Positions 1 to 33,207 of a stretch of 64,000 bases of DNA are shown here, one piece after another (position 1 is the stretch's first letter; every line of letters begins with the position of its first letter). The stretch is taken from contig NZ_OMPC01000009.1 of the NCBI RefSeq assembly GCF_900312675.1, positions 1 through 64,000 of the forward strand. Reading direction: 5' to 3'. Below the pieces are notes generated by a model. That model did no database searches and was not told the origin of the DNA. It was given only the letters and a program-made list of their open reading frames with translations. Made by a program: the position numbers and the translations under genes. The DNA is from Aliivibrio sp. EL58. GTDB taxonomy: Bacteria; Pseudomonadota; Gammaproteobacteria; Enterobacterales; Vibrionaceae.

Positions 1-3000
1 CTATTGTTAGTCCTGCAAAGTCACTGTCATTATCATTATCATTATCATCTAGTAGATTTTCATTGCTTGGTTGTGAAAAATCAACAGCACTGTTTTCTAA
101 GAAGTCATCTAAAGAAAAAGCATTTTCGTCGTCTTCATCTTCTACTTTATCTAAAGGCTCATCATTTTCAACGTCTAGCTCTTCAGTTTCAGCAAACAGA
201 TCATCTAACTCATCGTCAGTTTCTGACTCTAACTCTGACTCTTGAGCTTGTTCTGTCGTATCTGTACTTGGTATATCCAGTTCTACTGGCTCTTCAAGGT
301 CAGACGACGCATCATCTTGCTCAGTTTCTAATTCAACTTCAGATTCAAGAAAATCATCAAGCTCATCGTCAACTTCTGACTCTTGAGCTTGTTCTGTCGC
401 ATCAATACTTTGTGTACCCAGTTCTACTGGCTCTTCAAGTTCAGACAATGCATCATCTTGCTCAGTTTCTAATTCAACTTCAGGTTCAAGAAGATCATCA
501 AGCTCAAACGAAATTTCATCTTCTGCTTCCTCTTCTACCTCAGCTAAAGGCTCATCATTTTCAACGTCTAGCTCTTCAGTTTCAGCAAACAGATCATCTA
601 ACTCATCGTTAGTTTCTGGCTCTAACTCTGACTCTTGAGCTTGTTCTGTCGCATCAGCACTTGGTGTACCCAGTTCTACTGGCTCTTCAAGTTCAGACAA
701 TGCATCATCTTGCTCAGTTTCTAATTTAACTTCTGGCTCAAGAAGATCATCAAGCTCAAATGAGATGTCGTCTTCTGCTTCCTCTTCTACTTCAGCTAAA
801 GGCTCATCATTTTCAACATCTAGCTCTTCAGTTTCAGCAAACAGATCATCTAACTCATCGTTAGTTTCTGACTCTGGTTCTTGAGCTTGTTCTATCGCAT
901 CTGTATTTGGTGTATCCAGTACTACTGGCTCTTCAAGTTCAGACAACGCATCATCTTGTTCAGTTTCTAATTCAACTTCTGGTTCAAGAAGATCATCAAG
1001 CTCAAATGAAGCATCTTCTTTTTCTGTATCAGATTCAAATAATGAAATATCATCATCTTCGTCTTCATCAGCTTCAACTAACCAATCTTCATCACGAGGT
1101 GTGTCTTCTGAAAGTGCCTCTGATACTGCTACACCTTCTACTTCAGTATCATCGCCACGCTTTCCCGGAGTAGTTTCTTCCTCTTCAACATCATCACCAA
1201 GTAACTCATCTAAAAGTACGGTGCTGTCTTCATCTAGCTCAATTGTATCGTCTTCGTCTTCATCATCTAAAAACTCATCCAGAAGGGCTGTGCTATCTTC
1301 ATCGATTTCTACACTGTCGTCTTCTTCACTCAGCTCTTCGTCATCACCAAGTAATTCATCAAGTAATGCCGTACTGTCATCTTCGATATCTAAGTCAATG
1401 CTCTCTTCTTCATCATCAGACTCGCCCAATAACTCATCAAGTAGCGCCGTATTGTCATCTTCGATATCTAAATCAATACTCTCTTCATCATCAGATTCAT
1501 TAAGCAACTCATCTAGTAACGCTGTACTCTCTTTATCAGATTCTAAATCAATACCCTCTTCATCAAGCTCTCCAAATAAAGCATCATCATTATCTAGTTC
1601 GATACTCTCTTCTTTATTAGAACCTTCAGTCGTTTCATTTGTATTTTCCATCTCTGATAATAAAGCATCAAAGTCCAATTCATCTTCTACTGAATTTGAA
1701 ACCGACTCTGGAGCAAGTTTGGTTTCTTCTTTTTCGTCCAGATCCCAACCTTGGTCTAGCTCAGACTCTTCTGAGTCATCTTCCATATCCATTGATGAGA
1801 ACAGATCATCTAGCATTGATTGATCAAGTTCTCCACCTTCAAGATCTTCGTTATCATCAAGTTCTGGCGCTGATTTATCTAACGCTGATAGATCTGAATC
1901 ATCAATAAGTGATAGATCAAAGTCGTCATCTTCTTCTTCTAAATCGCTTGCTGAGAATAAATCACTGTCGAAATCATTCAGTGCTTTTTCCATCTCCTCA
2001 AGACCTAGTGCTTTTTCTTCCGCATCAACGGTTAGTGCACTTGAGGACATATCAATGTCATCATCTAAACCATCAAGGTCTAAATCAAGATCTCCATCAG
2101 ACAACATTAAATCTAAATCATCGTTTTCTTCACCGTCTAATGAAGCAAATGGGTCATCATTATCTGAACTGTTATTTTCGGTTTCAAACTCAGCGAATAA
2201 ATCATCATTTGAATCTGAATTATCGTCACCAAATAAGAATTCGTCATCATTTAGATCACCTAAAAGGTCATCATCGTCATCTAAACTAATTTCTGGAATG
2301 TCATCATCCATATTGAAATTATTTTCTGGCATAACTAGCGGTGAAGGCTGAGTTTCTGACGTATTTTCTGCGTCTTCCTCTTCCTCTTTCTTACGACGGA
2401 ATAAGAAGAATGCAATTAAGCCTGCAATTAAGGCGCCTGGAATTAAAGCAAGTAATGCGATTAGACCTGGGCTTGATGCTAAATTATCCATTGCACTTGG
2501 TTCTGCTTTTTTCTCAGCAGCCGCAAGTTGTTTCTGTTCATTAATGAATTTTTCGACTTCATTACGAATTCGGTCTTCATCACCTAATGAATTTTTTAGA
2601 TTGTCGACTTCATTTTGAACTTCTGCTAATCGAACACGCAGTTGGTGGTTATTTTCTTGTAATGCTGAAAATTCTTGTTCTGTGGTATCTAATTCAGATT
2701 TCAGCTCAATAACTGAAGCAGGAGCAACAGCTTTACTCACCTCTTTAGCTGGTGATTTATTAACAACCGATGCTTTTTCTTTACTTGGAGATAACGCTGT
2801 TTCTTTTGACGCTGGCGTTGATTTACGCTCTGATACAACTGTACTTGTCGTTTTGGTACTCACTGATTTTTGCGCGTTCTGTTTATTTTTATGGGCAATA
2901 AGCAGTTGTTTAGCATCATCAGTATTTTCACGACGAACTTGTTCTAACGTCGGTAATCGCAAACGGCTATTTGGCTCTAATCCATGAATATTATTATTTT

Positions 3001-21597: not shown

Positions 21598-22410
21598 CTA
21601 TTGAGCTGCAATAAACTCTATCGCGTACTTATTGAATTCTTTTGGTCTATCAATATTACACACATGACCGCATTCGGGGATTTGCAATAACTGACTGTGT
21701 TCATGTACCGCTACCATCTCTTCTACTGGCTTCATAAATAAATAATCATTTGCTCCCATCACATACAGTGTAGGAATTGCTAATTCTTTATCTTTGAAAT
21801 AACGCATCAGTGGATTCACATCAGCGGCTAACTTAAACCAACGTTTAAACTCTTTCTGGCACAGTTTTTTAGCTTCACGGGTAAAGATATGACGTGATTC
21901 TTTTTGGCTTTTCTGTGGCATAACGACGTAAGAGAAAAGTTTATATAACCACATATAAGGCATGATATTTTTCGTCATATCTCCCATCTTAATTAAAAAT
22001 TGAGATCGAAAATTAAAACGCGTAATTGCCCCTGCCAACACCATAGAACTTACTCTATCTTGTGCTAACTCGGCTAAATTACGAATAATAATAGTGCCTA
22101 AAGACATACCCACAAAATGTGCAGATTTAATATTAAGATGATCAAGTACATCAATAATATCTTGGCTTACCACTTTAAAAGAGTATTGCTTGTTCATGAA
22201 TTCTTTAATTTTCGAGAAATTATTCGAACGTCCATGACCACGTAGATCAATTAGCAGAACATTAAAATTCTTCCTAAAAGCAGCTACTTGCTTAAACCAT
22301 GTTGTCGAACTTCCACCCGCACCATGAACAAAAACAACCCACTTAGAGCTTGATTCATGTTCATAAGCTCTGTGGAATAATAAAGAATCAGACATCCATT
22401 CAACTTTCAT
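21598..22410 (-). CDS. Alpha/beta hydrolase
   Basis: Second alpha/beta-hydrolase gene of the window, unrelated at sequence level to the one at 15.8 kb beyond the fold. Seen: FVHGAGGSSTTW (oxyanion loop, about residues 28-39), LLIDLRGHGRSNN, nucleophile elbow FVGMSLGTIIIRNLA (Ser about 123), an acid in YVMGANDYLF, and the catalytic His in IPECGHVCNIDRP. 270 residues, no export signal. It lies 113 bases downstream of the polyketide-like operon on the same strand with no obvious terminator between, so it might act with that pathway (for example as a thioesterase), but this is unproven. Confidence 0.8.
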   Translation of the reverse strand: MKVEWMSDSLLFHRAYEHESSSKWVVFVHGAGGSSTTWFKQVAAFRKNFNVLLIDLRGHGRSNNFSKIKEFMNKQYSFKVVSQDIIDVLDHLNIKSAHFVGMSLGTIIIRNLAELAQDRVSSMVLAGAITRFNFRSQFLIKMGDMTKNIMPYMWLYKLFSYVVMPQKSQKESRHIFTREAKKLCQKEFKRWFKLAADVNPLMRYFKDKELAIPTLYVMGANDYLFMKPVEEMVAVHEHSQLLQIPECGHVCNIDRPKEFNKYAIEFIAAQ

Positions 22411-22523
22411 AAAAAATATACATTGCGATGACTATATCACTTCAAGACAGTAATGAATATACATCACCTCATTTCCTGTCGTTGAGCTAACAAGATAAAA
22501 TAAAGACATCCTAACCCATTGAT

Positions 22524-23396
22524 TTATAGATCTAAGGTTAGGGTTATTACTCTATATCTCTCCTCAAAGCCATCAATGAACAGTAAGCGGCCTTGTTGTT
22601 CTTCTATAAATAGATTCAAAGCATACAATTGATTGGTTTCGTAGAAATCACAAACAGGTTGGCAATCAAATAAATCACTAGGCACAACGTCCATAACACA
22701 AGTTATTAGATCATTTGAAACTCGTTGACCAAATGCGACATGCGTTGCGAAAAAGGCTTGAGTCGTTAATAAGGAAGTCAGATATGCCAGTAACGATTGT
22801 TGGTTAAACTGTTGAGCTAATACATCAATTTTTGCTTTAGCGCCATTCTTACTTGCACTTAATAACATCCAATTTGATCCCTCGCCTATCACCGCATCTT
22901 CTGAAAGATCTAAATAACCATGAGGATCATTAGATTGATCTACTCGCTCATCCACCCCACCCAGCAATATATTCTGCTCTTGTTGTTTTTTTAGACTCGC
23001 ATCGGCTAGTAGTAATGCATTTTCAACCACAAATCCTTGCTGAGCTAAGTTTAGGTTTTTACTCTCAAGACCTAAAAACTTCGCAATATAAAACCCAGCC
23101 GTATTACTTAATGAGTTAATAAAATCGACGGGTTTAGGAGGCATATTTTCCACATAACGCTGCTGACACAATCGATTAAATACCGATAAGTTCCCCTGAC
23201 CAGAGACCATAAACAATGCGGTATTTTTATCTAATTCCTGTTGCTCTTTAATACCAGAGACACCTAACAAACTAAGTTGAATAAAACGATCAGTTCGACG
23301 AACAAAACCAGACGCCACTTTTTTGCATTCTGATTTTACATCAACATCTTGGTCTTGTTTAATATTCACACTAGCAACGCAATGCACATACATCAT
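22524..23396 (-). CDS. Ketosynthase-like protein lacking the active-site Cys (chain-length-factor-like)
   Basis: 290 residues. Weak resemblance to the thiolase fold: a MMYVHCVASVNI start, a central NAGFYIAKFLGL-type segment, then AQQGFVVENALLLADASL followed by ILLGGVDER, which lines up with the nucleophile helix and GMEM strand of the ketosynthase encoded next door. At the Cys position there is QQG, so no condensing nucleophile exists; the typical catalytic His motifs are also absent. Its ATG overlaps the 3' end of the ketosynthase gene by four bases (ATGA). The pairing suggests a KS/chain-length-factor-like heterodimer as in aryl polyene and type II polyketide systems; this is inference from position and a by-eye alignment. 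Confidence 0.55.
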   Translation of the reverse strand: MMYVHCVASVNIKQDQDVDVKSECKKVASGFVRRTDRFIQLSLLGVSGIKEQQELDKNTALFMVSGQGNLSVFNRLCQQRYVENMPPKPVDFINSLSNTAGFYIAKFLGLESKNLNLAQQGFVVENALLLADASLKKQQEQNILLGGVDERVDQSNDPHGYLDLSEDAVIGEGSNWMLLSASKNGAKAKIDVLAQQFNQQSLLAYLTSLLTTQAFFATHVAFGQRVSNDLITCVMDVVPSDLFDCQPVCDFYETNQLYALNLFIEEQQGRLLFIDGFEERYRVITLTLDL

Positions 23397-24535
23397 ACGA
23401 CGTCCTTCTTCACAACAAGTGCATTATTGTTACCACCAAAACCAAAACAGTTCAGTAAAAATACCCCAGAGTCACACGGGATACTTTCTTGTGTTGGAGT
23501 CCAGTTAATCTCATCATCTTGAATTTCAAAGTTTGGCGTTTTAGGTATGAACCCGTTGTTAATGGCCTGCATCATGATCACTAACTCACTCACACCGCAA
23601 CTGCCTAGCGTGTGACCAATATACGGCTTTAATGAAAATAACGAGGGCGTTTGAGAAAACACTTGTTTCATGCCATTTATCTCTGCTAAATCACTTAGAT
23701 TACTTGCGGTGCCGTGTGCCTTTACAGCGGTGATATCTTCTTCGCTCACATTACTGGCTTGCAGTGCATTCTTAATTACTTGAGCTATACCAGAACCATC
23801 CGGGTTTACGCCTGTCACACTGTGAGTCTCACACTGACTACTGCCACCACAAAACTGCCAAGGTGATAGTTTGACATCATCACGACTCATTAACAGTGCA
23901 CCTAAGGCTTCTCCCAATAGCAATCCATCTCTGTTTGCATCAAAAGGCTTAGTTTGCTGCTGAGCCAATAATTGCATGGATACGAATCCCTCAAAAGAGT
24001 GAGAGGCGAACATTTCCATCCCGATGACCAGTGCATAATCGATGACACCCGCCTCCAGCATCGTTGCCGCATCTAAAATGGCATTAGAGCTCGAAGTACA
24101 AGCGGTGTTGTAAGTTAAACTAAATGGATTTAAACCAAACTTAATCGTTAATCTATCGGCATACACACCATTTCCGACTCGACTACCTGAAAACTGAGGT
24201 GGATTATTTTCTTTAATACTCGAGCCAAGTGGGTGCATTAACGACATATCATTGGCGGCACAACCTAAAAACAGGCCACAACGTTGGCGATCTTGCTCTG
24301 ATATATTGTGCAGTTCAAACAAGTTGCTGATCAATGTGTCCAAATAAGGAATAGGATCAAACAGTTCCTCAAAATTACCATTATTCTGAATCGCGTAATA
24401 AGGCAACGTTTTGATCTGTTCAAATACATTCACTGATTTATCAACAGTAAGGTATTTGCCCGCTTTCATTAAATCCAATTGCTGTGTTTTATTGCCAAGT
24501 GCGCTTAACACGTCGCCACCAAGTATCGTAATCAT
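23393..24535 (-). CDS. Beta-ketoacyl-ACP synthase (FabF-like), biosynthetic cluster
   Basis: Elongating ketosynthase of a specialised pathway. Seen: full catalytic set with Cys146 in NTACTSSSN, His274 in VKAHGTASNLSD, Lys303 and His308 in LKPYIGHTLGS, and the C-terminal NCFGFGGNNNALVV loop. 380 residues, shorter and much more diverged than the housekeeping FabB and FabF in this window, with a trimmed N-terminus (MITILGGDVLSALGNK). Six bases downstream of the ACP gene; overlaps the Cys-less partner gene. Confidence 0.88.
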   Translation of the reverse strand: MITILGGDVLSALGNKTQQLDLMKAGKYLTVDKSVNVFEQIKTLPYYAIQNNGNFEELFDPIPYLDTLISNLFELHNISEQDRQRCGLFLGCAANDMSLMHPLGSSIKENNPPQFSGSRVGNGVYADRLTIKFGLNPFSLTYNTACTSSSNAILDAATMLEAGVIDYALVIGMEMFASHSFEGFVSMQLLAQQQTKPFDANRDGLLLGEALGALLMSRDDVKLSPWQFCGGSSQCETHSVTGVNPDGSGIAQVIKNALQASNVSEEDITAVKAHGTASNLSDLAEINGMKQVFSQTPSLFSLKPYIGHTLGSCGVSELVIMMQAINNGFIPKTPNFEIQDDEINWTPTQESIPCDSGVFLLNCFGFGGNNNALVVKKDVV

Positions 24536-24540
24536 CGTTA

Positions 24541-24810
24541 TTATTCTGGTTGTAGGTGATCAGCAAGGTGATTAATCGTCGTTACAATACGGCGAAACTC
24601 TTTTGGGTCTACCAAACGTAAATTAAAGTGACGCTGCAATAACATCGAAATTTGCAATCCATCTACTGAATCTAACTCTAAACCACTCTCATCAGAAAAT
24701 AGCTCTACATCATCTGCCAATTCATCTGCTGCGATTTCTTCTCTGTCACACTCTTCAAGGATCATATTTTTAAGTTTTATTTTGAATTCTGTATCTGACG
24801 ACCCTTTCAT
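24541..24810 (-). CDS. Acyl carrier protein, biosynthetic cluster
   Basis: 89-residue PP-binding protein. The phosphopantetheine site is Ser48 in LELDSVDGLQ, a good match to the DSxD consensus. It carries an acidic helix (ELADDVELFSDE) and a C-terminal region unlike AcpP. It overlaps the upstream permease gene by four bases and precedes the ketosynthase gene by five. It presumably carries the growing chain for this cluster, separate from AcpP at 53.6-53.8 kb. Confidence 0.88.
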   Translation of the reverse strand: MKGSSDTEFKIKLKNMILEECDREEIAADELADDVELFSDESGLELDSVDGLQISMLLQRHFNLRLVDPKEFRRIVTTINHLADHLQPE

Positions 24811-25973
24811 GAACTTTTCCTTTGTTTATAAGTAAATACAATACTGGCAATCAATAGTGAAACCACGCCAAATAACGTCAATGCCATGGCTTCATTAAGC
24901 ACATCCATTACGCTTCCTCGACGTAAGAAAATATCTAAAAAACCTTCTAAGCCCCACGACATCGGAGAAATATTGGAGAAGGTTTGCATCGCTTCTGGCA
25001 TCACAAATTTAGGCACCATGACGCCACCAATCGCCCCTAATAAAATATTAATAATGCCGCCAATCGTCGTTGCTTGTTCAATGCTATCAACCACGGTTGC
25101 AATCAAAATAGACAAACCAATTGCCGATAAACTGAGTGATAATGAAACCAATATCAAACCAAAAACCGAACCACCAATCGTTAATGGAGCCGCACCAAAT
25201 AGAGGAACGATATACATGCCAACGCCTATCATTAACCAGACTTGCACTTGATTTATCAGCATATAAGGTAATATTTTCCCACCAAACAAGGCCGCTAAGC
25301 TGAGATTCATAGTGCTTAATCTCATTAAGGTATTTTGTTTTCGCTCACTAATAAAAATAGTCGACATCGGAATAATGACAAAGAACAAACCAAACACGAT
25401 CCATGAAGGCACGCTTTGTTGAGTCGAGGTCGGTTTTTCATCTTGGGATAACTTGGCGTATTGAATCTCCATTAATGACGATTCATCAAAAGAATTATCA
25501 GCACTGTCATCATCCAAAAAATCAAAATTATCTTGATTGGCAGAGTTCACTTCATCAAGTTTATTTCCCATCCAACTCAAAGCTATTTGGTTCTTGAAAA
25601 TGGTCAGTAAAGAGGGAGAGGTATCTGCAGCTACACTAATTTTCAGTGGTCGCTCATCTTGATAAAAACCATCAGGAATATCGATAATAAACTGCACCCC
25701 CTCTTCTTCAGGTGAGAGGTAGTCATTCGAACTCAAAGGATACTGAGTTAATGTTTTAATAGTAGATAATTTAGTCGTTAACGCTTCACTAGCAGCGGTT
25801 GAATCTTGATCAATCACTACATAAGTCATTAATGATTTATCTTCGTTCATCACATCTTTAAGTGCCAATGACATGATCAAGATAAACACCGCAGGCATAA
25901 TAAACAATGCAGCTAACGCGTGTTTATCTCGGCCTACCAATAAGAATTCTTTTATCAACATGGCTTTAAACAT
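24807..25973 (-). CDS. ABC-2 type transporter permease, biosynthetic cluster
   Basis: 388 residues. Layout typical of the YhfS/NatB-like ABC-2 permeases: one N-terminal membrane helix (about residues 20-40), a large extracytoplasmic loop (about 45-175) rich in Ser/Asp, then five helices from about 185 to the C-terminus, including FGLFFVIIPMSTIFISERK. It overlaps the ATPase gene upstream by eight bases. Together they form an exporter, likely for the cluster product. Confidence 0.88.
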   Translation of the reverse strand: MFKAMLIKEFLLVGRDKHALAALFIMPAVFILIMSLALKDVMNEDKSLMTYVVIDQDSTAASEALTTKLSTIKTLTQYPLSSNDYLSPEEEGVQFIIDIPDGFYQDERPLKISVAADTSPSLLTIFKNQIALSWMGNKLDEVNSANQDNFDFLDDDSADNSFDESSLMEIQYAKLSQDEKPTSTQQSVPSWIVFGLFFVIIPMSTIFISERKQNTLMRLSTMNLSLAALFGGKILPYMLINQVQVWLMIGVGMYIVPLFGAAPLTIGGSVFGLILVSLSLSLSAIGLSILIATVVDSIEQATTIGGIINILLGAIGGVMVPKFVMPEAMQTFSNISPMSWGLEGFLDIFLRRGSVMDVLNEAMALTLFGVVSLLIASIVFTYKQRKSS

Positions 25974-26889
25974 CGGTTCTTCCTTTTGATGTTAGATTGA
26001 TAAATAGAGATTCAAGTGTGGTTGCACCATAGCGGATTTGTTTCACTTTGATGTGCTGTTGTTCTAATTCACTGATCACTTGAGCAACCAATGTGCTGCT
26101 TGAATGATCTAATAGTAAGGTCGTCGTATCAACTACGCTCACGGCCTCCATATTCATAATAGACAGAGATAGCGGTACCGATGAATGAGGATAAAGCTCT
26201 ACAATCACTTGCTGACTCTCTTGATTATTAATCAATGAGGATATTGAACCTTGCTTAACGATTTGACCCGCATTCATGATTGCCACGTCATCACAGATTT
26301 TTTCAATCTCTGGCATATAGTGAGATGTGTAAATCACGGTTTTATTGTCTGATTTATACGCCTTAATTGTATCCAAAATTTCATTGCGCGATTCAGGATC
26401 AATCCCCACTGTCGGCTCATCAAAAAATAGAACATCAGGGTTATTTAACAAACCAATCGCTATATTTAAACGGCGCTTTTGACCGCCAGATAAGGTTGAT
26501 GATTTTTGATCCATCATGGCTGCAAGGCGATTCGTTTCTACCGCATACGCTAAATTATCTTTTAAGATTTTGCCTTTTATTTTTTGCACACCAGCAAAGA
26601 AGTTTAAGTTCTCTTTTACACTTAAATTCTCATAAAAAGCCAAGCGTTGAGGGATCAAAGAGCAGCGCTGACGAATAACCTTTAGATTATTTTTTAGCGA
26701 TAAATCAAAAAAAGAGACCTCCCCAGAATCAAACGACACTAAGCCATTTAAAATGGAGATCAGCGTGGTTTTTCCTGCTCCGTTAGGACCGAGTAAACCA
26801 TAAATACTATTTGAGGGAATGGAGAGCGTTAAGTTATCTAACGCTTTCTTGTTACCATAGGATTTATTTAAGCCACTAATTTTGATCAT
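25966..26889 (-). CDS. ABC transporter ATP-binding protein, biosynthetic cluster
   Basis: 307 residues. Seen: Walker A GLLGPNGAGKTTL (about residues 33-45), Q-loop near LIPQRLAFYENL, signature LSGGQKRRL, Walker B VLFFDEPTVGIDP and the switch His in YTSHYM, followed by a ~90-residue C-terminal extension of the CcmA/DrrA type. Pairs with the adjacent permease; ATG/stop overlap with the upstream gene by one base. Confidence 0.92.
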   Translation of the reverse strand: MIKISGLNKSYGNKKALDNLTLSIPSNSIYGLLGPNGAGKTTLISILNGLVSFDSGEVSFFDLSLKNNLKVIRQRCSLIPQRLAFYENLSVKENLNFFAGVQKIKGKILKDNLAYAVETNRLAAMMDQKSSTLSGGQKRRLNIAIGLLNNPDVLFFDEPTVGIDPESRNEILDTIKAYKSDNKTVIYTSHYMPEIEKICDDVAIMNAGQIVKQGSISSLINNQESQQVIVELYPHSSVPLSLSIMNMEAVSVVDTTTLLLDHSSSTLVAQVISELEQQHIKVKQIRYGATTLESLFINLTSKGRTDV

Positions 26890-27905
26890 TAAAACGCTCG
26901 CATTAATGATAAGTACAATTGCTTTTCTTGCTCAGCAACTGATTCTAATTTTGCTGCAATAATATCAAATTCAATGGCTTTTTTATTTCGAGGGCGGATC
27001 GCTTTGGCTATTAATAATGCAAACTCACGCCACTCATCACCAATCGCCGTCATCTCAATAGAAGCGGTTTTTAGCTTTTCGTTATGAATCAACTCTGACG
27101 CTTCTTGTAAAAAAGAAGCGTAGATATAACGGAAACCGGCACCGCCAGTGCCAATCTCTTCTTGCATACGAATGATGTGACCTAAAAACAGTTTTGCGTA
27201 ATGCTCGTCTTTATTTTCTAATTGGCGAATATGCTTGGCTAAAAAATGCATCCCTTTTAAGCCTGCAATAGGCACAGGGGTTTTCAGCATCGTTTTAGCG
27301 GTTTTCTTAATGCTCTTTTCAATCACACTAGGGTAATCAATCGAACTTGGAATATGCGTTGGATAATACAATGACCCTTTTGGGGCCATAACACCTTTAA
27401 CAAAACGGGCTTTTTGTAGCGCTTTCTCTTCGGCTTCAACTAAGTGCTCAAAGACTGGGTCACTGATTTGATAGGTTTGATTTTTTTTATCAACAACAAT
27501 GAGGTTATGTGCATTAAAATGAAAACGCATCTCTTCTGGAAAATACGGCAACCAGAATACAGACGTTTGTGCGCCGACGATTTTACCTTGTTCAAGTAAC
27601 TCATCTAATCGCTTGGTGCCTTGCTCTGGCTTTGAAAACTTCTCTAATTTCATTTTCAAACCGATGCTTTTTTGCAATCCTTTCATTATGGATTTTGGCA
27701 TCGATCGATAGGCAATCAATGGCATGCCGCTGAGTTTCACAAACGGAAGATAAGCAAACACTAACGCGCTTGATAAACCAAACACCATTGGCTCTGATAA
27801 TGGCAAACCATGATGAGTAAGCATCGAAGACATGACACCACTCTCACAGTGTGCATAGTGTTTGTGTTGAAACTGAGTATTATTTTTTTTCAAGGTAGTG
27901 GTCAT
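26889..27905 (-). CDS. BtrH N-terminal domain protein, putative ACP-dependent acyltransferase
   Basis: 338 residues from the ATG at 27905; an in-frame GTG two codons upstream is also possible. Seen: HCESGVMSSMLTHHG followed by LSEPMVFGLSSALVFAY, the signature of the butirosin-biosynthesis BtrH N-terminal domain, in which the conserved Cys (here residue 20) is the presumed nucleophile. The middle contains FPEEMRFHFNAHNLIVVD and DPVFEHL, and the C-terminal third is helical. BtrH transfers an acyl group from an ACP to an amino acceptor. By analogy this protein could offload or conjugate the chain made by the cluster; the acceptor is unknown. Confidence 0.78.
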   Translation of the reverse strand: MTTTLKKNNTQFQHKHYAHCESGVMSSMLTHHGLPLSEPMVFGLSSALVFAYLPFVKLSGMPLIAYRSMPKSIMKGLQKSIGLKMKLEKFSKPEQGTKRLDELLEQGKIVGAQTSVFWLPYFPEEMRFHFNAHNLIVVDKKNQTYQISDPVFEHLVEAEEKALQKARFVKGVMAPKGSLYYPTHIPSSIDYPSVIEKSIKKTAKTMLKTPVPIAGLKGMHFLAKHIRQLENKDEHYAKLFLGHIIRMQEEIGTGGAGFRYIYASFLQEASELIHNEKLKTASIEMTAIGDEWREFALLIAKAIRPRNKKAIEFDIIAAKLESVAEQEKQLYLSLMRAF

Positions 27906-27918
27906 GAACACGCTTTAT

Positions 27919-28332
27919 TTATTTTTTATTCGAAAGGTTAGGTAATTTAGTTAATTGCTTAACTGAAATACCTAATGCATCACTGTAGGCCGAAAGCTTA
28001 GCTGGCGATAACTTAGCAAACACCGATGGTGAAAAATGACGTTTAACTCGCCATTGAAACCAACCAACAGATTGCGCTAACACCATTAGATCCATACGTT
28101 GAGCAAACATATGATAATACAAAGAGGACTTTTCCCCTGTTCTTACCAGGTCATACGCTACTTGTGCTTGTCGTTCAAATTCATTTAAGGCTTGCTTTGT
28201 GACTTCTTCTTCGACTTCCCAACCTGTAGACGCGACCACTGAGTACTCGCCATTTTCATCGGTGGCATACACGGCTTTCGCATTATTAGCGTAGGTTGAA
28301 ATATTATCTTGTGGGACTTTTTTAACTTCCAT
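27919..28332 (-). CDS. Unknown protein of the biosynthetic cluster (137 aa)
   Basis: Not recognised. The start is placed at the ATG overlapping the upstream stop as TAATG (MEVKKVPQDNIST); a longer frame runs back into the DarB-like gene and is not needed. Seen: an N-terminal beta-like segment (KAVYATDENGEYSVVASTGWE), a helical middle (EVTKQALNEFERQAQVAYDLVRTG) and a C-terminal region that looks like a small helical DNA- or protein-binding module (SPAKLSAYSDALGISVKQLTKLP). Sits between the BtrH-like and DarB-like genes with 13 and minus-one base spacing, so it is surely in the same operon. Confidence 0.7.
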   Translation of the reverse strand: MEVKKVPQDNISTYANNAKAVYATDENGEYSVVASTGWEVEEEVTKQALNEFERQAQVAYDLVRTGEKSSLYYHMFAQRMDLMVLAQSVGWFQWRVKRHFSPSVFAKLSPAKLSAYSDALGISVKQLTKLPNLSNKK

Positions 28333-29480
28333 TAGACCACCTTCAATTGCATAAAGGCGGTAGAGAATCGCCCACTCTCTGGTACGTAACACAATAATGT
28401 ATCACCCACTTTTAACTCACCAGAATGGAACAGCTCTTCTAACATGATATAAATCGAAGCTGAGCCTGTATTTCCTTTGCTTGGTAAATTAGTAAACCAG
28501 CGTTCTTGTGGAATATCACAGCCAGCTTCTAGCATGCCTTGATACAGACGATCACGGAAGTAACCTGATGAGTAATGAGGAACAAAATAGGTCACTTCAT
28601 CCGCGTTTACTTTACCTTGCTCAACTAACTCTTTTAGCGGCTTGGTTACTGTGTATTCAACAATATTATCGTTCAGTTGTTTTACGTCTTGCTTAACTGA
28701 AAATATAGATTGATCTAACCACTCTTGAGATCCATATTCACGCCAGCCTTTTAAGCTGCCATCTGCTTGTTTTTCAGCACCTGCATACATACAAGCATTA
28801 AGCTCGTTAGCGTATGATTTTTGCATCATCCATTCAATTTCAAGGGAGATTGAATCCGTATTAGGTTGAGACGTTAATAGTGCAGCACCCGCCCCATCAC
28901 TTAACATCCAACGTAAAAAGTCTTTTTCAAAAGCAATCTCAGGTTGACGCTCTAGTTCATCCACCACATTTTCAATTTCAGCTTCAAACTTATTGGCTCT
29001 CATCATCGCTGATGCATTTTCAGAACCTGTGACCACGGCATTATTACTTTGGCCACTTAGAATCGACATATAGCCATATTTTAATGACATGGTCCCCGAC
29101 AAACAGATCCCAGAGGTTGCCATCACTTCACAGCTAGGGATCCCTAGTTCACCGTGCACCATTAGGGCATGATTTGGTAAAATTTGATCCGCAATCGTCG
29201 TACCACAAGCTAACAACTCGGTAGTATTAATATCAAAGGAAGGTGACGATAATTTTCTAATCGCTTCTGCTGTAAGCTCAGTATTCGTATGCGTCGTTTC
29301 GCCGGTTGCAGGATTAATTGCATAATAGCGCTTCTTAATTTTATTGGATCGCAAAATGAGATTTTTTGCACGAGAGGGACGCGAACCAACTTGTCCAAGA
29401 ACGTTTTCGATTTCTTTATTACCAACGGCATCATTAGGCAAAAAAGCCTGAATGTCATTGATATATACTTTTTTATTCAT
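28332..29480 (-). CDS. darB: DarB/StlD-like ketosynthase (FabH-type), biosynthetic cluster
   Basis: KAS III-type enzyme of the family that fuses and cyclises two acyl chains in dialkylresorcinol, flexirubin and stilbene pathways. Seen: Cys126 in ATSGICLSGT, His302 in YFVPHYSSGYFRD, Asn337 in PSKGNTGSASIYIML, giving the complete Cys-His-Asn triad, and an N-terminal insert (NLILRSNKIKKRYYAI) typical of this subfamily compared with FabH. 382 residues versus 317 for the housekeeping FabH at 55.7-56.7 kb. It follows the darA-like gene by one base. Symbol assigned by family resemblance only. Confidence 0.8.
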   Translation of the reverse strand: MNKKVYINDIQAFLPNDAVGNKEIENVLGQVGSRPSRAKNLILRSNKIKKRYYAINPATGETTHTNTELTAEAIRKLSSPSFDINTTELLACGTTIADQILPNHALMVHGELGIPSCEVMATSGICLSGTMSLKYGYMSILSGQSNNAVVTGSENASAMMRANKFEAEIENVVDELERQPEIAFEKDFLRWMLSDGAGAALLTSQPNTDSISLEIEWMMQKSYANELNACMYAGAEKQADGSLKGWREYGSQEWLDQSIFSVKQDVKQLNDNIVEYTVTKPLKELVEQGKVNADEVTYFVPHYSSGYFRDRLYQGMLEAGCDIPQERWFTNLPSKGNTGSASIYIMLEELFHSGELKVGDTLLCYVPESGRFSTAFMQLKVV

Positions 29481-29481
29481 T

Positions 29482-30396
29482 CTAACGTCCTGACGGTTTT
29501 TCGTAATAGGTAATGCTTTCTTCTACTGCTTTCTTTCTAAAAGGTGAAATAAGTTTCTTTACTAATAAGTTTATCGGTACCAAAGTTAATACCATTAGTG
29601 CTAAAAATACGGCGTATATAGTAATCACTATTTTACGAGGAAAAGAACCTGGCTTACCTGACTTTTGAATTAGCTTGCCCCACACCATAAATGAGCGTGT
29701 GGCGATTTTTTCAGAACCGATCAGTTTTCCATTTACTGTCACTGCATTCAGATTTTTAAGTAATGGTTCTTTTTTCTTTTCTAAATCATTTTCTAATGCA
29801 CTAACAAGGCGATGACCAAAGCGCTCACTTTCTTGAAGATCTTGTTCAGATACCCCTGCGGCAGGGAAAATCCAAAATGGATCTTTTTTGCCAGTTAACA
29901 ACCAACGAGGAGTAGTAATAAATGCATAAATAGAACCCCCTTGATCGGTTAATACCGCATTATCAATCAATGTACCGCCTAACTCTGCAATAACCGCTTT
30001 CATCTTCTCTTGCGCCATTACCCACATATCACGACAAGCAATAAAAGTAATCACTGGCTTATCTTTAATTAAACGCTTTGCTTGCGCTGTTTTAAGAAAT
30101 CCAGTCATTGGAATCGAAGGAGATAAAAACCATACCGTATAACCGATAATAACTAGGTCATACTCTTCTTCTAAATTTTCTGCAGGCTTCACTTCACAGC
30201 CATTCATATAAATCGCTTCAGGAAAAGCATCAAAGAATGGGTAAAACGACCATGGATAAGGGTATTTATTGACAGGCTCAACACAGTGATAATCAACCTT
30301 TACTTCATCACTTTGACGTAAAGGTGCAGTTGCGAGCTCAACAAATTTTGCAAGCTGCCCACTTTGAGAGTGAGAAACGACTAAAACTTTTTTCAT
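29482..30396 (-). CDS. darA: DarA/StlC-like protein (dialkylresorcinol pathway), flavodoxin-like
   Basis: 304 residues. Seen: flavodoxin-type phosphate loop VVSHSQSGQLAKFV (residues 6-19), conserved NKYPYPWSFYPFFDAFPE, the IIGYTVWFLSPSIPM strand-loop, and a C-terminal hydrophobic segment (about 265-290) with basic flanks, suggesting membrane association. This is the protein family found beside DarB in dialkylresorcinol clusters, where it is thought to aromatise the cyclic intermediate. It is the first gene of the nine-gene operon; the Shine-Dalgarno before its ATG is poor. Symbol by family resemblance. Confidence 0.78.
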   Translation of the reverse strand: MKKVLVVSHSQSGQLAKFVELATAPLRQSDEVKVDYHCVEPVNKYPYPWSFYPFFDAFPEAIYMNGCEVKPAENLEEEYDLVIIGYTVWFLSPSIPMTGFLKTAQAKRLIKDKPVITFIACRDMWVMAQEKMKAVIAELGGTLIDNAVLTDQGGSIYAFITTPRWLLTGKKDPFWIFPAAGVSEQDLQESERFGHRLVSALENDLEKKKEPLLKNLNAVTVNGKLIGSEKIATRSFMVWGKLIQKSGKPGSFPRKIVITIYAVFLALMVLTLVPINLLVKKLISPFRKKAVEESITYYEKPSGR

Positions 30397-30595
30397 AGGC
30401 GAAGTAATTTCATTATTAATATGATTATTTTCAAACTATTTTATAGCATCCATAATTATTATAAATAGCTAATCAATATATTTAACAACTTCAAGCTTAA
30501 ATAGATAACCTCCTCGTTTAATTAATAAACTATTTGATATTAACTCCATAATAAATTAGCGTGAGCTCATAACTTCATTTTATTAAGGATAATAT

Positions 30596-30754
30596 ATGAA
30601 CAAGCTTGTTTTAATTATTTTATGTGTATTGCTTCCACCACTAGGTGTTTTCTTTGCAAAAGGGGTAGGAAAAGATCTCTTAATCAACATTGTACTGACT
30701 CTTTTCTTCTGGGTACCAGGAATGATCCACGCCCTTTGGGTAACGACTCGTTAA
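30596..30754 (+). CDS. yqaE: YqaE/Pmp3 family small membrane protein (52 aa)
   Basis: 52-codon gene with AAGGA eight bases before the ATG. The protein has two membrane helices (LVLIILCVLLPPLGVFFAKG and LLINIVLTLFFWVPGMIHALWV) and the family signature LPPLGVFF...LTLFFWVPGMIHA of UPF0057 (Pmp3). The family is linked to salt or membrane stress in other organisms. It is divergent from the biosynthetic operon and followed by a strong terminator. Confidence 0.9.
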   Translation: MNKLVLIILCVLLPPLGVFFAKGVGKDLLINIVLTLFFWVPGMIHALWVTTR

Positions 30755-30785
30755 GAAAGTAACTCATTAAAAAAACGTAAAATAA

Positions 30786-30820
30786 AAAAGCGAAACCCTA
30801 AATGAAGGTGTTTCGCTTTT
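30786..30820. terminator. Terminator between yqaE and metE
   Basis: AAAAGCGAAAC (30786-30796) pairs with GTTTCGCTTTT (30810-30820), with additional CC/GG pairing inside. A-run and T-run on both sides suit the convergent genes. Confidence 0.9.
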
Positions 30821-30873
30821 ATTTGGTTCCACGTAAATGAACGTTATTAACCAGTAATATTAGTTACTCTTAT

Positions 30874-33207
30874 CTAAGCTGCGTTAACTTGCCATTTCTT
30901 ACGCAGTGTTTTCGCCGCTTTTACCATGTTTTCAAGCGCCGCCTCTGTTTCTTTCCAGTTACGCGTTTTCAAACCACAATCTGGATTCACCCATAAACGC
31001 TCAACAGGCACTTTTGCTGCTGCGGTTTCAATTAAATCAACAATCCACTCTTCGTTTGGAATATTTGGTGAGTGAATATCATAAACACCCGGTCCAATCT
31101 CATTTGGATAATTAAAGTCTTCAAACGCTTTCAATAATTCCATGTTTGAACGAGACGTTTCTATCGTGATCACATCTGCATCTAACGCTGCCACTGATTC
31201 GATAATCTCATTGAACTCGCTGTAACACATGTGAGTATGAATTTGAGTTTCTGATTTCGCACTTGCTGCTGAGATCTTAAACGCTTCTACTGCCCACTCT
31301 AAATACGATTTTTGCTCGCTCTTTTTGATCGGCAATCCTTCACGAATAGCTGGCTCATCAATTTGAATAATATTAATGCCCACTTGTTGAAGATCAGAAA
31401 CTTCATCTCGTAAAACTAACGCTAACTGTTGTGCGATTTCTTTACGACTAATGTCTTCACGTGGGAACGTCCATCCAAGAATCGTTACTGGTCCGGTGAG
31501 CATCCCTTTCATTTGTTTAGTCGTTAACGATTGAGCATATTGCGTCCAATCAACCGTGATTGGAGCTTCACGCTCAATATCTGCCACCACGATAGCCGGT
31601 TTAACACAACGTGAGCCATAGCTTTGAACCCAACCAAATCGCGTTGCTTGAAATCCATTTAGATTCTCCGCAAAGTATTCAACCATGTCATTTCGTTCTG
31701 CTTCACCATGCACTAATACATCCAAATCTAAACGCTCTTGACGCTCAACTGCATCAGCAATATGACCTTTCATTGCCGCAACATAATCTTGTTCGTTTAA
31801 TTTACCTGCACGATACGCGCTGCGCTGTTGACGAATATCAGAGGTTTGTGGGAATGAACCAATCGTTGTTGTTGGCAATAATGGTAAACCCAATTTTTCA
31901 GCTTGGTGTTGTGCTCGAACTGAATATCCATCTGCTCGCTCTGCTAACGCAGGGGTAATTGCCGCTAAACGTTGCTGTACTGCAGGCTTATTAATGTGCT
32001 CTGCCGTCTCACGCTCACGCAGTGGCTGACTGTATTGATGGCAGGCTAAGATTGCGTTTTGGTTACCATCTAGTGCACCACCTAACAAAGTCACTTCTTT
32101 TAACTTTTGTTTTGCAAACGCAAACCATTGAGTAGTTTCTTGTGATAATTCCGTTTCTTGTTCTAAATCTACAGGGCTATGCAACAATGAACATGAGCTT
32201 GCAATCCATAACTTATCACCCAGCTTTTCTTTCACTGGTTGCAGTCTTTCATGCAAACGTTCTAAATCTGCTCGCCATACATTACGACCATTAATCGCAC
32301 CAACAGACAATACCCACTCTTTTGGCAATGCAGCTACAATCGTGTCTAATTGTTTAGGATCTGCTGATATATCAATATGTAAGCCATTTACCGCTAATTC
32401 AGTGATCTTATCTAAATGGTGTTCGACGCCATCAAAGTATGTTGTTAATAGTAACTTCACATCACTTTGGATTACTTGATAAGCCAATTTAAATGAATTT
32501 GCCCATGCTTTGGGTAACTCAAGCGCTAAAATTGGCTCATCAATTTGTACCCATTCAACACCAAGCGCAGATAACTTCGAAAAAATTGCCTGATAAGCGG
32601 TAAGTAAGCGAGGAAGAAGCGCTAAACGATCAAACCCTTGCTCTACTTCTTCATCATTCACTTCTTTGCCTAACCACAAATAACTTAATGGGCCAAGAAG
32701 TACTGGTTTAACGGTATGCCCTTGTTTTTGCGCTTCTGCAATTTCATCAAATAGCTGTGACCAACTAACGTTAAATTTATCGTCTTTAGAAAATTCCGGC
32801 ACAATATAGTGGTAATTAGTATTAAACCACTTAGTCATGTCTGAGGCCGCTTCACCACAACCACAGCTGTTTTGAGATTGACCACGACCCACTTTAAATA
32901 AGGTATCTAAATCTGGAAAACCGTTATTGTGACGAGCTGGTACATGACCTAATAGAAGACTCGTCGTTAATACATGATCGTACCAAGCAAAATCACCCGC
33001 GGTAACAAAATCAAGTCCCGATGTGGTTTGATCTTTCCAATGACGTTGACGTAATTCACTGCCAACTGCTAATAATTCTTTTTTCTCTATCTCACCACGC
33101 CAATATTTTTCTTGTGCAAATTTCAACTCTCGTTGAGCACCTACTCGTGGGTAGCCTAAAATATGAGTGACTGTTTTTCCTACTGTATTGTTTAATTCTG
33201 TTGTCAT
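30874..33207 (-). CDS. metE: Cobalamin-independent methionine synthase
   Basis: Transfers methyl from 5-methyl-THF-polyglutamate to homocysteine. Seen: N-terminal [15 protein letters not shown], the catalytic-domain blocks [38 protein letters not shown], and zinc ligands in HTHMCYSEF (His, Cys), VITIETSR (Glu) and [11 protein letters not shown] (Cys). The ATG at 33207 gives 777 residues; it has AAGGGA upstream, whereas the longer frame would need a TTG. A 16-nt hairpin lies just upstream of the ribosome site and MetR/MetJ operators lie in the divergent region to metR. Confidence 0.97.

Follow-up and report, generated by a model that had tools for sequence, protein, structure and literature searches.

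A nine-gene dialkylresorcinol operon of the arcuflavin type in Aliivibrio, with a complete aryl polyene cluster about 1 Mb away

The closest described counterpart of the locus studied here is the dialkylresorcinol (DAR) gene set of Azoarcus sp. BH72, azo0293-0283, which runs darA-B-D-E-F-(G-H)-I-C-J-K (PMC3949708, Table 1). Its product, arcuflavin, is an ester of a DAR with an aryl polyene, and the genes for the polyene lie in clusters at other genomic sites (PMC3949708). A DAR was obtained when the Azoarcus DAR proteins were expressed heterologously, and free DAR was not found in Azoarcus extracts even though the dar genes work (PMC3949708). The flexirubin clusters of Chitinophaga pinensis and Flavobacterium johnsoniae combine DarA and DarB with an aryl polyene pathway started by an ammonia-lyase, within a Bacteroidota flx gene set. 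Aryl polyene (APE) clusters as such, for example those of Vibrio fischeri, Escherichia coli, and Xenorhabdus, hold no dar genes, and that of V. fischeri is reported to contain every gene required for APE synthesis (PMC8253772). In the parts of the two pigment papers available to us, the step that esterifies polyene to DAR either has no enzyme assigned or only a proposed one, namely the ligase-like FlxW of C. pinensis, with no BtrH protein put forward. When the literature was searched for DAR genes of Vibrio or Aliivibrio, no report dealing with them directly came up.

We analyzed a window of 64,000 nucleotides from Aliivibrio sp. EL58, in which the ORF list contains nine minus-strand ORFs at 22524-30396. 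As the original prediction had described, they are separated by small gaps or overlaps, between +7 and -8 bp (from darA to darK: +1, -1, +7, -1, -8, -4, +5, and -4 bp); a 113-bp gap follows darK before the next gene. In the order of transcription, the genes are:

darA, 29482..30396, minus strand: 304 aa, flavodoxin-like DAR aromatase/condensing protein
darB, 28332..29480, minus strand: 382 aa, StlD/DarB ketosynthase (DAR cyclase), triad C126-H302-N337
darD, 27919..28332, minus strand: 137 aa, NCBIfam "DarG family", C-terminal helical domain resembling a Cro/C1 helix-turn-helix
darE, 26889..27911, minus strand: 340 aa, GTG start, NCBIfam "DarH", BtrH_N + DUF4872 acyltransferase
darF, 25966..26889, minus strand: ABC transporter ATPase, DrrA-like
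darI, 24807..25973, minus strand: ABC-2 permease
darC, 24541..24810, minus strand: acyl carrier protein (ACP), 89 aa, phosphopantetheine Ser48
darJ, 23393..24535, minus strand: 380 aa, ketosynthase, Cys146-His274-His308
darK, 22524..23396, minus strand: 290 aa, ApeC/chain-length-factor-like partner of DarJ

We follow the gene names of PMC3949708, whose darD and darE correspond to the NCBIfam families DarG and DarH. The darA and darB homologues are adjacent, and the order darA-darB-darD-darE-darF-darI-darC-darJ-darK shares all nine gene kinds and their succession with Azoarcus BH72, as compared by the published Table 1 and not by alignment. Azoarcus differs in an inserted toxin-antitoxin-like Phd/PIN-type pair (its own darG and darH), which is absent from Aliivibrio. 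The original prediction had called the pathway possibly uncharacterised and knew of no described compound, a view that this comparison does not support, since the DAR from the same kinds of genes is part of arcuflavin (PMC3949708).

DarB falls clearly into the StlD/DarB family (NF005293, 600 bits; cut-off 450) and matches the solved structure of its close homologue StlD over its full length (PDB 5gk0, E=1e-132). StlD belongs to the isopropylstilbene pathway of Photorhabdus, which is not known to include the BtrH-APE set. The complete Cys-His-Asn triad ascribed to DarB at the outset proved invariant, with Cys126, His302, and Asn337 present in 59 of 59 relatives. DarA is flavodoxin-like only at the profile level: Alone it matched no Pfam or NCBIfam family above threshold, while 12 of 22 relatives weakly matched Flavodoxin_4 (best 4.4e-4) and a DarA profile matched the solved flavoprotein 2mwm (E=3e-5). 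Syntenic darA genes outside Aliivibrio encode proteins of 41 to 83% identity.

The remaining accessory proteins were assigned with differing firmness. DarF matched PF00005 (103 bits), its best NCBIfam match being the DrrA subfamily, below cut-off; DarI matched PF12698 (121 bits). DarC scored just under cut-off for the PP-binding family and under cut-off for PRK09184, and its Ser48 is invariant in 52 of 52 sequences. In the family search proposed originally, DarB and BtrH_N/DarH exceeded their cut-offs, DarA alone did not, and the PP-binding match was weak; taken together, the family matches agree with a DarA/DarB dialkylresorcinol operon that has its own ACP and ABC exporter. DarD scored 172 bits against DarG_fam (NF053536, cut-off 70) and 126 bits against the flexirubin-specific DarG model (NF053545), i.e., below the cut-off of 170, which sets the operon apart from the flexirubin clusters. 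A search of DarD against the sequences of solved structures gave no match. Its AF2 model is confident over residues ~45-130, and the best solved Foldseek matches include Xre/Cro proteins at weak E values of 0.03 to 0.2; of 43 relatives, 11 matched HTH_26 (best 3.4e-4). The C terminus is probably a Cro/C1-type helix-turn-helix, which is a new annotation, and a regulatory role for DarD would be a guess.

DarE is the protein that most directly concerns the ester bond. It scored 506 bits against DarH_acyl (NF053550, cut-off 300), 167 bits against BtrH_N, and 191 bits against DUF4872; when compared with solved structures, it matched nothing but unrelated helical proteins, and these weakly. The BtrH_N domain is shared with BtrH of butirosin biosynthesis, which moves an aminoacyl group onto an aminoglycoside amine, whereas the acceptor expected for DarE is a phenol. 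All 60 relatives retain Cys22, His135, and Asp151, three residues that would fit the needs of a thiol acyltransferase and are the putative catalytic ones. Such a BtrH-like enzyme suits acyl transfer to a hydroxyl, in keeping with the acceptor transfer first suggested for it, and DarE is the best candidate for the ester-forming enzyme, though this assignment is unproven.

The second half of an arcuflavin-type pathway was found in the same genome. On the same contig, at a distance of ~1 Mb (G000:C12, ~1,019,000-1,037,000), lies a complete APE cluster that, with gene names assigned by position and family, encodes an aromatic ammonia-lyase, a thioesterase-like protein, LolA, an MMPL exporter, an AMP-ligase, two ACPs, an ApeO-type ketosynthase (KS) and a PRK09185 KS (573 bits), ApeC, a ketoreductase (KR), the ApeP dehydratase, a second dehydratase-like protein, and a glycosyl/acyltransferase. 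It is of the same kind as the APE clusters of V. fischeri, E. coli, and Xenorhabdus. As in Azoarcus, the polyene genes thus form a cluster of their own within one genome; the starter is supplied differently, by XanB2-type genes in Azoarcus versus the ammonia-lyase in Aliivibrio, which is the flexirubin arrangement. Adjoining the cluster (L034:8083-10428; C12 ~1,035,000-1,037,400) are genes for an O-methyltransferase and for a flavoprotein that resembles Trp halogenases and contains a WYWLIP stretch, and the head group of the polyene may carry a methyl group or a halogen. The nine-gene operon itself is distinct from the APE locus, because 22524-30396 contains no KR, dehydratase, AMP-ligase, or two-ACP set. 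The earlier remark that reduction genes are lacking therefore holds for the operon, but it missed the complete APE cluster of the same genome.

The two gene sets also travel together. When genomes were drawn by order (296 genomes), 14 carried DarH, and 13 of these had an APE ketosynthase over cut-off as compared with 131/296 overall (Fisher p=1.5e-4, a value that treats the genomes as independent and ignores the kinship among them). All 10 further DarH-bearing genomes had one as well, which brings the co-occurrence of DarH/BtrH and APE ketosynthase to 23 of 24 sampled genomes, against an APE background of 131/296. The exception, G111 (88% complete, 600 contigs), has DarH, with neither APE ketosynthase nor DarB detected. 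In a draw by phylum, DarB exceeded its cut-off in 13 genomes, every one of them with DarH and an APE ketosynthase, while none of the nine genomes (both draws) holding only sub-threshold DarB-like proteins had DarH. From their coordinates, dar and APE genes are at most 30 kb apart in 9 of the 23 genomes with both, and in Neisseria dentiae the dar genes are nested in the APE cluster, between LolA and MMPL. The reverse association is loose: APE without dar is common (118 of 282 DarH-negative genomes in the order draw), and APE would there be finished without DAR. Nearly all Aliivibrio genomes have the APE ketosynthase, whether dar is present or absent, and A. sifiae is one species that carries both clusters.

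This association bears on whether the operon instead makes a free dialkylresorcinol, which DarF-DarI would export as a signal or as an antibiotic/antioxidant independently of APE. Photorhabdus asymbiotica DARs signal via LuxR-type receptors, and published work connects DARs with LuxR-type signaling in Photorhabdus; darA and darB alone give free DAR in a heterologous host, and the exporter is within the operon. However, DarH travels with APE clusters and is often physically linked to them, and Azoarcus extracts yielded no free DAR despite working dar genes (PMC3949708). We consider a free-DAR product quite unlikely. In another alternative, DarE would attach an acyl chain made by DarJ-DarK-DarC to the resorcinol, yielding a DAR fatty-acid ester, with the APE product attached elsewhere. 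The presence of an ACP, a KS, and a chain-length-factor (CLF)-like subunit beside the acyltransferase would suit it, but both the co-occurrence with APE and the aryl-polyene ester made by the homologous Azoarcus operon (PMC3949708) speak against it, and we regard it as very unlikely.

DarJ and DarK, the most divergent genes of the operon, needed closer comparison. DarJ matches PF00109/PF02801 and aligns with Cys146, His274, Lys303, and His308 in place; DarK matched no Pfam or NCBIfam family and lacks the conserved active-site Cys in the alignment. A complete ketosynthase with a Cys-less partner, as originally read, is thus what the alignment gives. A DarK profile matches ApeC of the same genome (E=2e-9), a profile-level similarity between proteins of 290 and 242 aa, and it also matches the C terminus of natural DarJ-DarK fusions (E=4e-9 to 6e-9). 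These fusions, of 564 to 575 aa, occur in Uliginosibacterium and a soil genome (L076:14728-16452 and L077:9961-11652). For the AF2 model of DarK (pLDDT 94), the top three PDB folds are chain B, the chain-length-factor chain, of the ishigamide KS/CLF. Together with the Cys-His-His of DarJ and its absence from the thiolase-fold DarK, these matches and fusions make the two proteins most simply an ApeO-ApeC-like pair, resembling that of the V. fischeri, E. coli, and Xenorhabdus clusters (compare PMC8358021). The two may form a heterodimer, of which the gene overlap and the natural fusion are indirect signs.

In the fused proteins, we observed that the first catalytic His of the ketosynthase is gone (HGTA to QAAG). 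KS-like pairs can act as acyltransferases, and DarJ-DarK might accordingly form the ester, leaving DarE to another acyl transfer or to hydrolysis. The replacement of the catalytic His in four aligned DarJ rows, both fusions included, would agree with this, as would NCBIfam matches of DarJ that include, below cut-off, the cispentacin acyltransferase subunit AmcF. Aliivibrio DarJ, however, keeps its Cys-His-His, and the DarE triad never varies among the 60 relatives while DarJ and DarK diverge most, such that we judge this assignment unlikely.

The genomic setting of the operon is variable. It is flanked by metE on one side and, on the other, by a conserved hydrolase gene adjoining purU; its GC content (39.1%) is close to that of the window (39.5%), so that composition gives no sign of foreign origin. 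Promoter and terminator scans at both operon ends yielded nothing above shuffled sequence. We considered whether the alpha/beta hydrolase downstream (21598-22410) could be a tenth member or a thioesterase for release, and rejected this: It is ~95% conserved beside purU where Aliivibrio genomes lack the operon and thus belongs to the core genome, outside the operon. The closest named relatives place the host in the genus Aliivibrio, of which 6 of 14 genomes carry DarE. In this genus, the stretch that separates metE from the purU-linked hydrolase (22410-30874) is a site of variable insertions. In one operon-less genome (L093) it has no large ORF; in L094 it holds a ~600-aa membrane ORF, which also adjoins the dar operon in L096; in L095 and L098 it is filled by genes that resemble a PTS-like transporter, a LacI-type regulator, and an aminotransferase, products guessed from sequence only. 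An interval either empty or occupied by unrelated genes points to an insertion hotspot. At the far edge of the window (4-1823), long low-complexity plus-strand ORFs, Ser-rich and His/Leu-rich, probably just mirror a repetitive gene encoded by the opposite strand.

Beyond Aliivibrio, the nine genes were found together again, mostly in the same succession, in other Vibrionaceae, Psychromonas, Helicobacteraceae, Sulfurimonas, Desulfobulbaceae, Cellvibrionaceae, Uliginosibacterium, and Neisseria, and their arrangement is thus not due to chance; a check for co-occurrence across Vibrionaceae had been proposed originally. In several lineages (L030, L032, L066-L071, L079), the operon is split into the modules darABDE and darFICJK, which lie apart and face opposite directions, and the nine genes thereby act like two units. 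The DarE tree places Photobacterium indicum (L037) within Aliivibrio at ~93% identity, which suggests a recent transfer between genera within the family.

Because the gene kinds and their order match a known operon and the other half of the pathway lies 1 Mb away, the Aliivibrio locus is a good new example of a known pathway, in which such an operon provides the resorcinol part of a yellow pigment of the membrane. We hold with good confidence that it is an arcuflavin/flexirubin-type DAR operon whose product is joined to the aryl polyene as an APE-DAR ester pigment, and such an ester is the likely, predicted product in Aliivibrio. Counted in favor of this explanation were the Azoarcus order match, the APE cluster, the co-occurrence, the StlD-like DarB, the DarE residues, and the CLF-like DarK; counted against it were the unlinked clusters, the commonness of APE without dar, G111, the kinship of the genomes, and the FlxW proposal. 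In the proposed scheme, DarB would condense two fatty-acid-derived acyl intermediates and cyclize them, and the flavodoxin-like DarA would aromatize the ring to a 2,5-dialkylresorcinol, as both do in homologues. DarJ-DarK, acting as a KS/chain-length-factor pair on the dedicated ACP DarC, may supply one of the chains, while the aryl polyene carboxylate would be assembled by the distant cluster with ACPs of its own. DarE, the BtrH-related Cys-His-Asp acyltransferase, would then esterify a hydroxyl of the resorcinol with the polyenoyl chain, and DarF-DarI may carry the resorcinol or the finished pigment across the inner membrane. By analogy with what is known or proposed for relatives, the pigment would reside in the outer membrane and guard against oxidation.

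More tentatively, and at somewhat less than even confidence, some Aliivibrio, Vibrio, and Photobacterium may make an undescribed APE-DAR ester from two unlinked clusters, with DarE as the missing ester synthase of the entire arcuflavin class and DarJ-DarK as an additional KS-CLF pair, devoted to the resorcinol, that determines an alkyl chain. The new annotations of DarK and DarD extend to all dar operons of the arcuflavin type. APE clusters are very widespread, and the final attachment of APE acids varies between lineages. We see here a real, well-conserved operon of known kind, the value of which lies chiefly in making the ester-forming step testable: In a tractable marine host with two unlinked, complete half-pathways, the enzyme that joins polyene and resorcinol can be tested gene by gene.
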